Shown here piece by piece: positions 1,145 through 7,406 of a DNA stretch of 64,000 nucleotides. The first letter of the stretch is position 1; each line of letters opens with the position of its first letter. Origin of the DNA: an uncultured Acidimicrobiales bacterium (lineage in GTDB: Bacteria > Actinomycetota > Acidimicrobiia > Acidimicrobiales > Aldehydirespiratoraceae); the NCBI GenBank assembly GCA_905480195.1, contig CAJQPN010000005.1:1-64000 (forward strand), written 5' to 3'. A program made the position numbers and the translations under genes. The notes beneath the pieces were generated by a model. It did not search any database. It saw only the letters and a list, made by a program, of their open reading frames with translations, and was not told the origin of the DNA.

Positions 1145-1616
1145 CGCCAACCTCGCGACGACGTCGGAGGTGAACGTGAGCCCTGGCTGCGCCCCACAAC
1201 AGCCCCGGTTCGTGGAGGGAGGGGTCGATATCGCTGAAGGCTGCCGGGCCGAGTCCGAACGGGTCATTCGGGAACTGCCGCTCCTGGAACTCGTCCCTCG
1301 GCGGGCGGGGCGATCCCCATGCTTCCAGGCACCTGGTCATTGCGCCGACGCCGGCCCTGAGCGACGCCAGCGGAGAGCCCACAGTCGCGTCGACATCAGC
1401 GGCGAGGAGCACTCGAAGCGATGGCATGACCACGGCGGCGGTCTCGACCGCAACACCGGATGCGGTCACCGGGTCGAACGCTGCGCCACCCCTCGCTCGA
1501 AGCGAACGCTCAACCCAGTCCGGGATCGCAGCCTCAACGCGATCGGCAAGGTCGAACGCAAACGCAGCGAGGCGCGCCTCGTCGTCTGCGAGCGTCACTT
1601 CGGGCTGCGCGTCCAC
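1137..1616 (-). CDS. Conserved-looking hypothetical protein
   Basis: GTG-started reading frame of 159 residues beginning with Met-Asp-Ala-Gln-Pro. The first half is helical and acidic (LADDEARLAAFAFDLADRV), with a middle segment DATVGSPLASLRAGVGAM and a basic tail (HVHLRRRREVGDG). There is no signal peptide or membrane segment. It is transcribed divergently from the aconitase X operon, with only 23 bp between the two starts, and overlaps the start of the receiver-like gene downstream by 8 bp, so the two probably act together. I do not recognise the family. The start codon is uncertain because no clear ribosome-binding site is visible. Confidence 0.6.
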   Translation of the reverse strand: MDAQPEVTLADDEARLAAFAFDLADRVEAAIPDWVERSLRARGGAAFDPVTASGVAVETAAVVMPSLRVLLAADVDATVGSPLASLRAGVGAMTRCLEAWGSPRPPRDEFQERQFPNDPFGLGPAAFSDIDPSLHEPGLLWGAARAHVHLRRRREVGDG

Positions 1617-1639
1617 GCCGTCAGACTACGGTGACGCCG

Positions 1640-2908
1640 ATGCCACTCACCCTCGACGACCGCGACCAAGCGCTTCTCAACGGCGATGGCGGTCCAGCCG
1701 CCGCCCTCGCAATGCGCATCGTCAGCCGGACCGCCGAAGTGATGCGAGCAGAGCGACTTGTCGACATCACCGGTGCCCACATCGACTCGTGCCTGTACAA
1801 CGGCCAGGCGAGCGTCGACTTTCCCAAGCGCCTCGCCGACGGTGGCGCTCAGGTCGTCGTGCCCGCGACCCTCAACGTCAGTTCACTCGACCTGATCCAC
1901 CCCGAACTCTTTCGAGGTGACGCCCACACCGCTTCGCAAGGGCGACTGTTGATGGAGCTCTACGAAGGCATGGGCTGCCAGCCGACGTTCACCTGCGCCC
2001 CGTACCAACAAGACAACCGACCCAACGTTGGTGAGCACGTTGCATGGGCCGAGTCCAACGCGATCGTGTTCGCCAACTCGGTCCTCGGCGCCCGCACACA
2101 CCGCTATGGCGATTTCCTCGACATCTCGGCTGCGATCACCGGGCGCGCTCCGCTCGCCGGCCTGCATCTCGACGCCAATCGCCGAGCGACGGTCGTCTTC
2201 GATGTGAGCGCTGTGCCCGAGCGACTGATCGCACTCGATGCGTTCTACCCTTTGCTCGGCCACCACATCGGCAAGCGGGTCGGCAAGGCGGTGCCGGTGG
2301 TGGTCGGCGCTCCGAACCACGTCGCCGAACATCTCCTCAAGGCCCTCGGCGCTGCCAGCGCAGCTGCCGGCGCAGTCGGCATGTTCCACCTCGTTGGCTC
2401 GACCCCGGAGGCACCGACGCTCGATGCCGCGCTCGGCGGCGAGCGCGCCGCCGAGACCTCTGTCGTGACCGCAGCTGACCTCCGACTGGCTCGAGATCAG
2501 CTGACCACCTCGACGTCGTCGAAGCTCGGTGTCGTAAGTCTGGGCACGCCGCATTACTCGGTGGCCGAATTCGGACGGGTGGTCGAGGCCCTCGACGGCC
2601 GCCGAGTCCATCCGAGTGTTCGGCTCTACATCAATACCGGCCGCAGCGTCGCCAACGAGATCGCACTGCGCGGTTGGATCCCGCTCCTCGAGGCCAGCGG
2701 GGTACAGATCGTCACCGACACCTGCACCTACATCACACCGATCATGGAAGATATCGACGGCGTCGCCATGACCGACTCCGCGAAATGGGCCTACTACGCC
2801 CCCGGCAATCTGGGCGTCGATGTTGCGTTCGGCTCGGTAGAAGATTGCATCGAATCGGCCGTGCGAGGCGAAATCGTCCGCGACGAAGGCGTGTGGGCCG
2901 ATGCCTGA
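1640..2908 (+). CDS. Aconitase X catalytic (large) subunit, cis-3-hydroxy-L-proline dehydratase type
   Basis: AcnX large-subunit family (DUF521), 422 residues from the ATG at 1640. Bacterial two-subunit AcnX enzymes dehydrate cis-3-hydroxy-L-proline to delta1-pyrroline-2-carboxylate, using an Fe-S cofactor and paired Cys residues. Visible family blocks are YNGQASVDFPKRLADGG near residue 50, FTCAPYQQDNRPNVGEHVAW around 115-135 and TDTCTYITPIMED around 360. The small (swivel) subunit follows with an 8-bp overlap, and a pyrroline-2-carboxylate reductase homologue faces it downstream, which supports a hydroxyproline role. The alternative known AcnX activity, archaeal phosphomevalonate dehydratase, is unlikely because ispD/ispF of the MEP pathway are in this window. 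The family is sure; the substrate is inferred from context. Confidence 0.88.
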   Translation: MPLTLDDRDQALLNGDGGPAAALAMRIVSRTAEVMRAERLVDITGAHIDSCLYNGQASVDFPKRLADGGAQVVVPATLNVSSLDLIHPELFRGDAHTASQGRLLMELYEGMGCQPTFTCAPYQQDNRPNVGEHVAWAESNAIVFANSVLGARTHRYGDFLDISAAITGRAPLAGLHLDANRRATVVFDVSAVPERLIALDAFYPLLGHHIGKRVGKAVPVVVGAPNHVAEHLLKALGAASAAAGAVGMFHLVGSTPEAPTLDAALGGERAAETSVVTAADLRLARDQLTTSTSSKLGVVSLGTPHYSVAEFGRVVEALDGRRVHPSVRLYINTGRSVANEIALRGWIPLLEASGVQIVTDTCTYITPIMEDIDGVAMTDSAKWAYYAPGNLGVDVAFGSVEDCIESAVRGEIVRDEGVWADA

Positions 2909-3311
2909 CGCCGAGCGCGTGTTGATGAGCGGTGAGGCCCGCGGCCCAGTTCTTCATCTCGAGGAGCCGATCAGCTTCTGGGGTGGCCTCGACCCGTGGA
3001 GTGGCACCATCATCGACCAGGCCCACCCCCAGGTCGGTGAGTCCATCGTCGGCCGCATCCTGTTGCTGCCGTCGGGGCGAGGCTCAAGCAGCGGTTCGTC
3101 GGTTCTGACCGAGGTTCTCCGAGCCGGGATCGGTCCGGCTGGGATCGTAATGCGGCACGCCGACGAGATTCTCGTGATCGGCGCACTCGCCGCCGAGGAG
3201 CTCTACGACATCACCGTGCCGATCTTCACGGTCGACGAAGCAACCTACGGCGCCCTCACCGCTGCCGACGCGATCGTGATGGCGCCGGATGGCACAATCA
3301 CGACCGGCTGA
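2901..3311 (+). CDS. Aconitase X swivel (small) subunit
   Basis: 136-residue protein of the DUF126/AcnX swivel-domain family, which packs on the large subunit to close the active site. The block ILLLPSGRGSSSGSSVL around residues 55-70 is the conserved substrate-binding PSGRGSSSGS loop. FWGGLDPWSGTIID near residues 29-42 is also typical. The ATG at 2901 overlaps the end of the large-subunit gene by 8 bp (ATGCCTGA), so the subunits are translationally coupled in a 1:1 arrangement. The usual length is about 130-140 residues, so it looks intact. Confidence 0.88.
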   Translation: MPDAERVLMSGEARGPVLHLEEPISFWGGLDPWSGTIIDQAHPQVGESIVGRILLLPSGRGSSSGSSVLTEVLRAGIGPAGIVMRHADEILVIGALAAEELYDITVPIFTVDEATYGALTAADAIVMAPDGTITTG

Positions 3312-3394: not shown

Positions 3395-4324
3395 TCAGCC
3401 GAGGGCGAGGCGAGCAGCCGCCAGATCCTCGAGCGCCGTTCCCGCCGACTTGAACATCGTGATCTCGTCGTTGCGGGTGCGGCCCGGATGGGTTCCGGCG
3501 ACGAGTTCGGCGAGGTCGGCGGCCAGATCGGCTCGGGTGAGGACACCGGACTCGAGAGGCTGCGCGATATCGCCAGCAATGACCGCATCGTCGTAGGTGT
3601 CGACGAAAACCGATGCCCGTCGTACGACGTCGTCATCGGCTTCACGCATGGCGCGGTTGAAGCCCCCGATCAGATCGACGTGCGTCCCTTCGCGCAGCAG
3701 TGCACCGCGCACGATCGGCTGTGTGGCCCCGGTGACACACGAGATGACGTCGGCGTCGGCCACTGCAGCATCGAGATCCGTGACCACGTCGGCCGACAGC
3801 CCTTCTGCAGCCAGCGCATCGACGACCGCTGCCGCCTTCGCTCGGTCGCGCCCCCAGACCCGGATTGAGTCGAAGTCTCGAACCGCAGCATGGGCCTGCG
3901 CAGCCATTGGTGCCAGCGCACCCGACCCAACCACCAGCAACGTTCGGGCATCAGGTCGGGCAAGGCGCTTCGCAGCGACCGCCGAGGCCGCTGCGGTGCG
4001 GCGAGTGGTCAGCACGTTTGCTTCGCAGGCCCCGACGAGCGATCCCGTCGTACCGTCGAACAGCAATACGCCTGCTTGCACCATCGGGAGCTCCTGCGCA
4101 CCGTTGTCAGGGAAGACCGTCACCGCCTTCACCCCGATCAATTCCCCAGCGACCCACCCAGGCTTCAAGAGGAACGAAGCATCGTTGCCGTTGCCGTCGG
4201 GCACCGTGTGGAGCGTGCGAGCCGGCGAGGTGGCACCCGGCTCGACCATGATCTGCTCAATCGCCTCGATCAGGGCTGGCCACGGCAGCGCTGCTCCGAT
4301 GTCGGCGTCGGTGAAGAATCTCAC
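3395..4324 (-). CDS. Ornithine cyclodeaminase/mu-crystallin family reductase, probable delta1-pyrroline-2-carboxylate reductase
   Basis: About 309 residues of the OCD/mu-crystallin fold: an N-terminal dimerisation part (RFFTDADIGAALPWPALIEA), then a Rossmann NAD(P)-binding segment LLVVGSGALAPMAAQAH near residue 125, and THVDLIGGFNRAMREAD with DTYDDAV in the C-terminal half. Family members reduce delta1-pyrroline-2-carboxylate to L-proline, or deaminate ornithine or alanine. Its position facing aconitase X, whose product is delta1-pyrroline-2-carboxylate, favours the reductase role. I chose GTG at 4324 because GTGA overlaps the upstream stop and a GGGGGGA stretch lies 6 nt before it; an ATG at 4339 is the alternative. 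Translation is probably coupled to the AhpD-like gene. Confidence 0.82.
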   Translation of the reverse strand: MRFFTDADIGAALPWPALIEAIEQIMVEPGATSPARTLHTVPDGNGNDASFLLKPGWVAGELIGVKAVTVFPDNGAQELPMVQAGVLLFDGTTGSLVGACEANVLTTRRTAAASAVAAKRLARPDARTLLVVGSGALAPMAAQAHAAVRDFDSIRVWGRDRAKAAAVVDALAAEGLSADVVTDLDAAVADADVISCVTGATQPIVRGALLREGTHVDLIGGFNRAMREADDDVVRRASVFVDTYDDAVIAGDIAQPLESGVLTRADLAADLAELVAGTHPGRTRNDEITMFKSAGTALEDLAAARLALG

Positions 4325-4902
4325 CCGTCGTCCCCCCAATGACCCATCGGTGGCTCCGGTGGGTACCAGTCTTCGATTTCGATCCCGAGGCCATCGGCGA
4401 TCCGATTGGCATACGCGTAGTAGGCCGTCACGTCGCAGATGTCGAGGACATCGCGATCAGTGAAACCGGCAGCTCGCAGTGCGTCGACGTCGGCCTCGAC
4501 CATTTCGCCCGGCGTCCGCGTGAGCTTGACTGCATAGGTGAGCATTGCCGTCCGCTTGAGGTCGAGCCCGGCGGTCTCCCAACCCTCGTCGATCCGGGCG
4601 AGCAGTGCATCGTCTTTGAGAAGTCGGCGCAGACCGCGACGGTGGTGCGTAAGTCAATAGTGACAGTCGTTGATGTCGGAGACGATGTAGGCAATCAACT
4701 CTCGTTCGACCTTGCGCAACGTCTTCGTTCCCGCCATCGCCGACCGATACAACGCATCGTGGGCGGCAACGCTCGCTGCGTTGAGCGAATGGACGCTCAT
4801 GATGTTGTCGATCCGGTTCGCATCGCGGTCCACGACCCGTTCGCGGAGCGGTTCGAGATCGCCACTCCAGTTGTCGTCCGGAACCCGTTCGATCCACGCC
4901 AT
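4321..4902 (-). CDS. AhpD-like peroxidase-related protein, candidate selenoprotein (in-frame TGA = Sec83)
   Basis: A single reading frame of 193 residues if the TGA at 4656-4654 is read as an amino acid. The family (AhpD/carboxymuconolactone decarboxylase superfamily, peroxidase-related branch) has the redox signature E-x11-C-x2-C-x3-H. Here E68, C80 and H87 are all present and the TGA falls exactly on the second Cys (DCHY-TGA-LTHH). The 110 residues after the TGA continue the family sequence without a frame change (RGLRRLLKDDALL, TAMLTYAVKLTRTPGEM, DVLDICDVTAYYAYANRIADG). A SECIS-like hairpin follows the TGA (separate entry). AGGAGGAG lies 5 nt before the ATG at 4902. The downstream reductase starts within the final stop (GTGA), which needs ribosomes to reach that stop. 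Likely role: thiol/selenol peroxidase or disulfide reductase. If TGA is not decoded, the product is an 82-residue fragment. Confidence 0.85.
4621..4656 (-). promoter_or_regulatory. SECIS-like element immediately after the TGA codon
   Basis: Minus strand. After the TGA (4656-4654) come 18 nt and then GGTCTGC (4635-4629). A CGC/GCG stem (4638-4636 with 4630-4628) closes a GGTCT loop, with GTCG/CGAC (4640-4637 with 4626-4623) as an alternative or outer pairing. In E. coli fdhF the UGA is also followed by 18 nt and then a GGUCU apical loop that SelB binds. The spacing and loop are seen; SelB binding is inferred. Confidence 0.7.
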
Positions 4903-4943: not shown

Positions 4944-5750
4944 ATGACTCACCCGGACCTCGCAGGGAAGGTCGTCGTCGTCACCGGCGCCGGCAAGGGA
5001 ATCGGCCAGGCAATCGCAGAACGCTTCGGCTCGGTCGGCTCATCGGTCGTCGTAAACGACGTCGACACGACCACAGCAGAGGGGGTGGCCGCCGGCATCA
5101 ACGACGCCGGCGGCACCGCGATCGCCGCCCCCGCCGACGTATCCGACAGCGGTCAGGTCGGGGGCATGTTCGACCGCACCGTCGATACCTTCGGCACCGT
5201 TGATGTGCTGGTCAACAATGCCGGCCTCGTGAGCCCGATGTTGCACTTCTTTGACGCCGACGAAACGTGGTGGCGGCGGATCATCGACGTGAACCTCACC
5301 GGGCACTTCCTGTGCTGTCACGTCGCCGCCCGCATCATGGCCAAGAAGGGCGGGGGCTCAATCATCAATATGAGTTCCGGCGGGGCCACGCGGGCCCATC
5401 GAAGCTTCACCGCCTACGACGCAAGCAAGGGTGGTATCGAGGCGCTCACACGCGCGATGGCGCTCGACCTCGGCCCCTACAACGTTCGGGTCAATGCCTT
5501 GATGCCCGGCTCGATCGATACCGCCGGCATGGACGAGGAGGCTCGGGCCTACCGAGGCCTCAACATTCCCGCAGGGCGGATCGGCGATCCGTACGACATG
5601 ACCGGGCCCGCACTGTTCCTCGCCAGTGACGACGCCGCCTACATCACCGGTGACGTCATCAAGGTCGACGGCGGCATGCTCGCCCAGCAGCGATCGGCAA
5701 CCGTCGACATCGTGCACCCCGACACGTTTCCCGCAGTCGAAGACCTTTAG
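4944..5750 (+). CDS. Short-chain dehydrogenase/reductase (SDR)
   Basis: 268-residue classical SDR, a cytoplasmic NAD(P)-dependent oxidoreductase. Visible motifs are the cofactor-binding TGAGKGIG at about residues 15-22, NNAG near 90, the catalytic Ser in NMSSGG and the YDASK (Tyr-x3-Lys) active site around 157-161, then the PG motif in NALMPGSID. An Asp after the second strand (VVNDVD) suggests NAD preference. It starts 41 bp after the divergent AhpD-like gene and is followed, after 3 bp, by the ThDP enzyme, so these two form one transcription unit. The substrate cannot be told; a 3-hydroxyacyl- or sugar-type alcohol dehydrogenase are both possible. Confidence 0.85.
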   Translation: MTHPDLAGKVVVVTGAGKGIGQAIAERFGSVGSSVVVNDVDTTTAEGVAAGINDAGGTAIAAPADVSDSGQVGGMFDRTVDTFGTVDVLVNNAGLVSPMLHFFDADETWWRRIIDVNLTGHFLCCHVAARIMAKKGGGSIINMSSGGATRAHRSFTAYDASKGGIEALTRAMALDLGPYNVRVNALMPGSIDTAGMDEEARAYRGLNIPAGRIGDPYDMTGPALFLASDDAAYITGDVIKVDGGMLAQQRSATVDIVHPDTFPAVEDL

Positions 5751-5753
5751 GCC

Positions 5754-7406
5754 GTGGGCGCGATCCGTACCGGTGGCCAAATCGTTGTCGACGCCCTCGT
5801 CTCCCACGGAGTCACTCACGCCTTCGGCGTACCCGGCGAGAGCTACCTCGCGGTGCTCGATGCCCTTCACGACACCGACATCGACTTCGTCATCTGCCGC
5901 CAGGAAGGCGGAGCTGCCTACATGGCCGAAGCCTGGGGCCGACTCACCGGCTCACCCGGTATCTGCATGGTCACCCGCGGGCCGGGAGCAACCAACGCGT
6001 CAGCCGGCATCCACGCCGCACGCGAGAACTCCCAACCGATGGTGGTGCTGATCGGGCAGGTCAGTACCCATGAGATTGGGCGTGAAGCCTTTCAAGAGCT
6101 CGACTACCAGCGCTTTCTCGGTTCACTCACCAAATGGGTGAACCAAGTCGACCACGTCGACGACCTCGCCGAAACAATGCAGCACGCGTTCAAGATCGCC
6201 GTGTCGGGTCGGCCCGGACCAGTAGCAATCGCGCTCCCCGAGGACATGCTTCGGGCATCGACCGCGGCGACTGACGTAACACCACTCGAGATCGAACGCG
6301 CAACGCCGACCGACGCCGAGATCGATGCGATCATCGCCGAACTGGAAACAGCCGAACGCCCCGTGATCATCGCCGGCGGTGGTCGCTGGACGCTCGATGC
6401 TCGCGTCGACCTCGCCGCGTTTGCCGAGGACAACGACATTCCAGTCGTCGCTGCGTGGCGGTTTCACGACCTCATGGACAACCACAGCGGCCACTTCGTG
6501 GGTGAAGCAGGCATCGCGATGGTGGCGGCTGTGCGAGACACGATCCTCGATGCCGATGTCATTGTCGGGCTCGGCATCCGGTTCGGTGAGATGACAACCG
6601 CCGCCTGGACCCTGATCGATCTCGACGAGCCCACCCAGCGAATCGTTCACGTACACCCCGAGAGGACCCAGATCGGCCGGATCTACCCGACCACCGTGGG
6701 CGTCTGTGGCGACCCATCGGTAACCATTGGCCTCCTCCGCAATCGCACCGTGGCAGGAGCCGAGCAGCGGGCCGAATGGCGGACCACGCGTCGGGCCGCC
6801 TTCCTCGACGGCTTCGGAGCGCCACCCCAGCCTGGAGATCTCGACATGGCCGAGGGGATGCGCTGGCTCGAGGCCAACCTCCCCGACGACGTGATCCTCA
6901 CCAACGGCGCCGGCAACTTCTCGATCTGGAACGGCAAGCTCTTCCGTTACGGCGCCGAAGCGCGTCTCTTGGCCCCCCAGAACGGCACCATGGGCTATGG
7001 CCTGCCGGCCGCCATCGCGGCCAAGGCCGCGTACCCCGATCGCACGGTCATCTGTTTCGCCGGCGACGGTGACTTCCAGATGACAATGCAGGAACTGGGA
7101 ACGGCTCGACAGGCCGGACTCGAACCCATCGTGCTCGTATTCGACAACGCGATGTACGGCACGATCCGAGCCCACCAGGAACGTAGCTATCCCGAGCGAA
7201 TCAGCGGGACGCCGATCGTCAACCCTGACTTCGTCGCGATCGCCGAGGCCTACGGCATGCACGCCGAGCGGATCGAGCGGACCGAACAGTTCGGCCCGGC
7301 GATGAAGCGAGCGATGGCGTCGGGGACCGGCGCACTCCTGCACTTAGTGATGCCGGCTGACCGGCTCACCCCCTGGGCATCCGTCGCCGACGTTCGGCCC
7401 GACTGA
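5754..7406 (+). CDS. Thiamine-diphosphate enzyme, acetolactate synthase large-subunit-like
   Basis: 550 residues with the three-domain ThDP fold. The N-terminal PYR domain carries GVPGESYLAVLDAL (the catalytic Glu that activates ThDP) and RQEGGAAYMAEAWGRLTG. The middle domain follows, and the C-terminal PP domain has MGYGLPAAIAAKAA and the GDG...N metal/ThDP motif (GDGDFQMTMQEL then FDN). It begins with GTG 3 bp after the SDR stop. No small regulatory subunit or KARI follows, so biosynthetic IlvB is unlikely. A catabolic decarboxylase or ligase of the glyoxylate carboligase/benzoylformate decarboxylase type is as likely. The exact reaction is not assignable from sequence. Confidence 0.82.
   Translation: MGAIRTGGQIVVDALVSHGVTHAFGVPGESYLAVLDALHDTDIDFVICRQEGGAAYMAEAWGRLTGSPGICMVTRGPGATNASAGIHAARENSQPMVVLIGQVSTHEIGREAFQELDYQRFLGSLTKWVNQVDHVDDLAETMQHAFKIAVSGRPGPVAIALPEDMLRASTAATDVTPLEIERATPTDAEIDAIIAELETAERPVIIAGGGRWTLDARVDLAAFAEDNDIPVVAAWRFHDLMDNHSGHFVGEAGIAMVAAVRDTILDADVIVGLGIRFGEMTTAAWTLIDLDEPTQRIVHVHPERTQIGRIYPTTVGVCGDPSVTIGLLRNRTVAGAEQRAEWRTTRRAAFLDGFGAPPQPGDLDMAEGMRWLEANLPDDVILTNGAGNFSIWNGKLFRYGAEARLLAPQNGTMGYGLPAAIAAKAAYPDRTVICFAGDGDFQMTMQELGTARQAGLEPIVLVFDNAMYGTIRAHQERSYPERISGTPIVNPDFVAIAEAYGMHAERIERTEQFGPAMKRAMASGTGALLHLVMPADRLTPWASVADVRPD

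Follow-up and report, generated by a model that had tools for sequence, protein, structure and literature searches.

A predicted AhpD-like selenoprotein with a CxxU motif conserved in Acidimicrobiia

The locus described here lies in a stretch of 64,000 nucleotides, analysed as a whole and called the window below. It raises the question of whether a TGA inside an AhpD-like gene is a selenocysteine codon or marks the end, or the decay, of the gene. The minus-strand frame 4902-4321 is broken by the TGA at 4656-4654 alone. It starts with an ATG at 4902, with AGGAGGAGC just upstream, and continues for 110 codons beyond the TGA to a stop TGA (4323-4321) that shares bases with the GTG (4324-4322) opening a downstream reductase gene. 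Read through, the product has 193 amino acids. The TGA corresponds to residue 83 (Sec83) within the motif E68-x11-C80-H-Y-U83-L-T-H-H87, where Sec takes the second position of CxxC (CxxU). A preliminary description had proposed a frame split by this TGA only, with E68, C80 and H87 in place, the TGA at the second Cys, and 110 in-frame family codons ending in a stop that overlaps the next GTG. Each of these points was recovered from the minus-strand sequence, with E68 at C80-12. The features of the region are listed in Table 1.

Table 1. Features of the selenoprotein locus and its neighbourhood (positions in the window)
Feature	Position	Strand	Evidence or remark
Convergent neighbour	1517..2908	+	412 bits, under the full-length model's cut-off of 700; protein split here over two genes
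Aconitase X small part (DUF126-type)	2901..3311	+	Neighbour
Ornithine cyclodeaminase/mu-crystallin family, predicted Delta1-pyrroline-2-carboxylate/piperideine-2-carboxylate reductase	3395..4324	-	PRK06141; GTG start overlaps selenoprotein stop
Predicted AhpD-like selenoprotein gene, 193 aa with Sec83, TIGR01926 / CMD fold	4321..4902	-	Profiles, alignment, AlphaFold2, structure match
SECIS-like hairpin CGTCGC-GGTCT-GCGCCG	4625..4641	-	5/6 pairs form; one central U.C mismatch
In-frame UGA, predicted to be read as selenocysteine, second position of CxxU	4654..4656	-	Column common to all but one aligned clade-1 orthologue
SDR oxidoreductase, divergent neighbour	4944..5750	+	Profile match
Thiamine-pyrophosphate enzyme (PRK08199 subfamily), neighbour	5754..7406	+	Profile match

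The read-through product reaches 129.7 bits against TIGR01926 (cut-off 81.8), which places it among the COG2128-type AhpD-like peroxidase-related enzymes. It also matches PF02627 (44.2 bits, cut-off 23) in one stretch, residues 51-93, that spans the UGA. Membership of another AhpD-related CxxU family, AhpD_rel_CFYUT (NF041238), was ruled out by a score far under the cut-off (45.5 bits against 175). The AlphaFold2 model has a pLDDT of 91.4 and its best matches among solved structures are the peroxidase-related proteins 2pfx, 3c1l, 2prr and 6k40 (TM about 0.8); model and structure comparison together recover the all-helical fold of AhpD-like proteins. These Cys-type proteins and 2oyo share with the present product the fold (TM about 0.8), the E/C/C/H site and about 25-33% identity, but carry Cys where it has Sec. 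Residues E68, S75, N78, C80, Y82, position 83 (C or U) and H87 are invariant among 19 aligned Sec and Cys homologues. In Mycobacterium tuberculosis AhpD, a five-residue relay is formed by Glu118, Cys130, His132, Cys133 and His137, and the P. aeruginosa protein PA0269 has Tyr in place of His132 (PMC3141380). E68, C80, Y82, U83 and H87 match these five residues, so that U83 falls at the place of Cys133.

Of 395 genomes from the class, about 78 have a close homologue with an in-frame TGA (roughly 56-92% identity); 60 loci were aligned, and genomes outside these loci were counted by their number of in-frame stops only. The TGA occupies the residue-83 column in 36 of the 37 distinct clade-1 orthologues aligned. 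It had been argued beforehand that random nonsense would not be expected to fall exactly on the residue where Sec replaces Cys, an argument borne out by this common column; the alignment of homologues that had been suggested as a check also shows the downstream frame intact and free of decay. The exception (L047:224-763) has TTA (Leu) at the Sec column, which from its sequence may mean either that Sec was lost recently or that a base is in error. Its hairpin is still paired, and the genome that carries it is 79% complete and gave no selA hit. Compared with the two nearest relatives, L020 and L049, the region downstream of the TGA shows 31 and 42 differences at third codon positions, respectively, and 2-5 at first and second positions. 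Amino-acid identity to these relatives is 0.94 and 0.92 after the TGA and 0.90 and 0.91 before it. Purifying selection acts on the codons that follow the UGA.

The Sec form extends beyond the class to others of the same phylum, where identity is 54-60%. A 58-row tree requires two Sec/Cys changes, with a second Sec clade and the Cys homologues placed outside clade 1. One CxxU protein (L077) lies inside an otherwise Cys group of this tree, on a long branch whose place is unsure, which suggests a separate Cys/Sec change. Members of the second Sec-AhpD clade (L059-L065), which includes AT-rich genomes of ~1 Mb, carry the motif CxxU-xx-A-H. About 25 nt past the UGA they show another possible hairpin, CTCC-GGTC-GGAG, kept even where the surroundings are AT-rich. 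At one further locus, a second AhpD-like paralogue devoid of the CxxC/U motif (L056:3460-3897) lies immediately upstream of the Sec gene.

The genome from which the window derives (a 2.78 Mb draft, 86.96% complete) encodes the Sec machinery. Profile searches identified selA (374.9 bits, cut-off 267.9) and selB (281.3 bits, cut-off 242.25), side by side on contig 60, and selD (368.2 bits, cut-off 125). A tRNA-Sec with anticodon tca was recovered by Rfam (64 bits, cut-off 47) and ARAGORN concurs. The preliminary description had held that a genome lacking sel genes would speak against Sec; all four components were present, and this objection fails. Among the 78 orthologue-bearing genomes, selA was found in 73 (E <= 1e-40) and the remaining five are 56-84% complete. 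Judged by its sequence, the selD product of the source genome (L016:1501-2427) is itself a selenoprotein, with an in-frame UGA in GAGUGCK.

Codon usage just after the UGA follows a distinctive pattern. In 34 distinct clade-1 sequences the residues encoded there are N-N-H-H-R-R-G-L-R-R. Gly is always GGT (34/34), a codon with a share of 27% among the Gly codons of these genes; Leu is always CTG (34/34; share 38%) and the second Arg, before GGT, always CGC (34/34; share 37.5%). The resulting layout, CGx-CGC-[GGTCT]-GCG-yCG, leaves x:y as the sole variable pair, at synonymous third positions of Arg codons. The two bases are complementary in 33 of the 34 sequences (22 G-C, 6 C-G, 2 T-A, 1 A-T and 2 G-T), and none of 100,000 shuffles paired as well. 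In 20 of these sequences, nine changes at x:y affect both sides, and the covariation score exceeds that of all 500 shuffles and of all slid versions. Both sets of shuffles ignore relatedness. The window alone is unpaired at x:y (T 4639 opposite C 4627) while every other sequence pairs; by sequence, this U.C may be either a mismatch that is tolerated or an erroneous base. A SECIS hairpin after the UGA is therefore recovered at family level by covariation, the window copy being mismatched once.

The spacing from the UGA to GGUCUG is 18 nt. The SECIS of E. coli fdhF, whose sequence was verified against an E. coli genome collection (5,368 genomes), has the same 18 nt spacing from UGA to loop and the same GGUCUG apical loop but differs in stem sequence. 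Its bulged U17, four bases before the GGUCU loop, has the same offset as T 4639 of the window; in the relatives the equivalent base is paired, and the window is alone in having an unpaired U there. Minimum-free-energy folding of the window's local RNA does not select the hairpin, and a search of the 64-kb window with Rfam at gathering scores returned nothing but a tRNA. In the whole genome, UGA-N18-GGTCTG occurs 19 times against 12 in a backward control; the pattern alone is thus not diagnostic and was not used to identify other selenoproteins. Codon usage served to score the other TGA read-through candidates of the window; Pfam scans of five of them gave no match, so no second selenoprotein was found in the window in this way.

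Taken on its sequence context, the UGA at codon 83 is almost certainly decoded as selenocysteine. The complete reading, in which a 193-residue TIGR01926/COG2128 selenoprotein is produced by SelA, SelB, SelD and tRNA-Sec decoding the UGA via a SECIS, is held with high confidence. The machinery of the same genome would insert Sec at codon 83 under the direction of the hairpin in the codons right after the UGA. Sec would then replace the second Cys of the AhpD CxxC, with E68, C80, Y82 and H87 completing the predicted proton-relay site. The product is probably an AhpD-type selenol/thiol peroxidase or disulfide reductase, the analogy with AhpD pointing most likely to a hydroperoxide or a partner disulfide as substrate. 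In such a reaction the U83 selenolate, activated by H87 and E68, would attack the peroxide or disulfide. C80 would resolve the intermediate to give a C80-U83 selenenylsulfide, which a thioredoxin- or NADPH-linked partner may then reduce.

The gene neighbourhood raises another possible role, compatible with Sec decoding. The reductase whose start overlaps the selenoprotein stop scores 359.2 bits against PRK06141 (cut-off 322). Within the genus, the genes keep the order SDR/TPP enzyme - selenoprotein - reductase - aconitase X; other loci (L036/L091, L041, L054, L055 and L056) also have aconitase X close to the Sec gene. Many other orthologues have no aconitase X beside them and show other neighbours, such as the downstream gene in family f36, which we take from its sequence to be dipeptidase-like. 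The preliminary description had presented the protein as a version linked to a hydroxyproline-type reductase. The gene context supports the link itself, but linkage in the genus and in some others, and not in most orthologues, is no ground for regarding the protein as a new version. Aconitase X catalyses the first step, and its hydroxyproline gene clusters are covered by a 2016 paper (PMC5144071). The Sec-AhpD might thus be, in place of a general peroxidase-type enzyme, a redox partner or protective enzyme that in this lineage became dedicated to cis-3-hydroxy-L-proline/pyrroline-2-carboxylate catabolism, translationally coupled to the reductase. The stop/start overlap with the Pyr2C reductase and the nearby aconitase X pair, which some relatives from beyond the genus also have close to their Sec gene, speak for it. 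However, most orthologues beyond the aconitase X-linked ones have other neighbours, and the 2016 paper mentions neither AhpD nor carboxymuconolactone anywhere. Such a dedicated role appears unlikely, and the link to metabolism serves as a lead rather than as an established finding. If true, it would be the first physiological role for this selenoprotein family.

Three further alternatives concern the UGA itself. Translation might terminate there to give a functional 82-residue product, read-through being regulated and minor. An ORF of 82 amino acids exists and Sec decoding is often inefficient. However, the short form would be deprived of U83, H87 and most of the fold, and the C-terminal codons are conserved as much as the N-terminal ones, leaving this very improbable. 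A reading of UGA as another amino acid (e.g. Trp or Cys) through a changed code or natural suppression is slightly less probable still: a UGA-reading tRNA is present, but it is tRNA-Sec, and a changed code was rejected since the same gene ends in an ordinary UGA stop, selA, selB and selD are present and the fdhF-type hairpin is conserved. A pseudogene reading, with the TGA arising by nonsense mutation or assembly error in an ordinary Cys-type AhpD gene, as the hairpin mismatch of the window and the incomplete draft assembly might suggest, is scarcely conceivable and was rejected, the orthologues already refuting it by an identical TGA column in dozens of independently assembled species, purifying selection beyond the TGA and a covarying hairpin.

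A 2005 report on Sargasso Sea DNA (PMC1088965) described AhpD-like CxxU selenoproteins of COG2128, 'AhpD-like 1' was described in GOS in 2008 (PMC2398784), and the AhpD-like family is tabulated under TIGR01926 in a 2026 review (PMC13188914). The earlier statement that such proteins are known from marine metagenomes matches the first two of these reports. As far as the accessible text of the three sources goes, the proteins described share with the present one the family model, the CxxU motif, Sec at the second Cys and a SECIS immediately downstream; the family comes from metagenome reads with hosts not named, and is known by computational prediction with no established function. Here, compared with those parts of the reports, it is placed in Acidimicrobiia genomes with sel genes, a covarying SECIS and a gene context. 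Among the papers searched, three contain both selenocysteine and Acidimicrobi, and neither term appears in the title or abstract of any of these. The gene is a real selenoprotein gene and a well-supported addition to a known family; the family itself is not new.

Under the standard code this gene is reduced to a fragment of 82 residues and its tail is lost, so that genome records can easily conceal a conserved redox enzyme of the Acidimicrobiia. The gene encodes a widely conserved redox enzyme of this class, of predicted function. Its Sec state is near-fixed in the class and, together with the operon partner, offers a place to test the function of the protein and why selenium has been kept.
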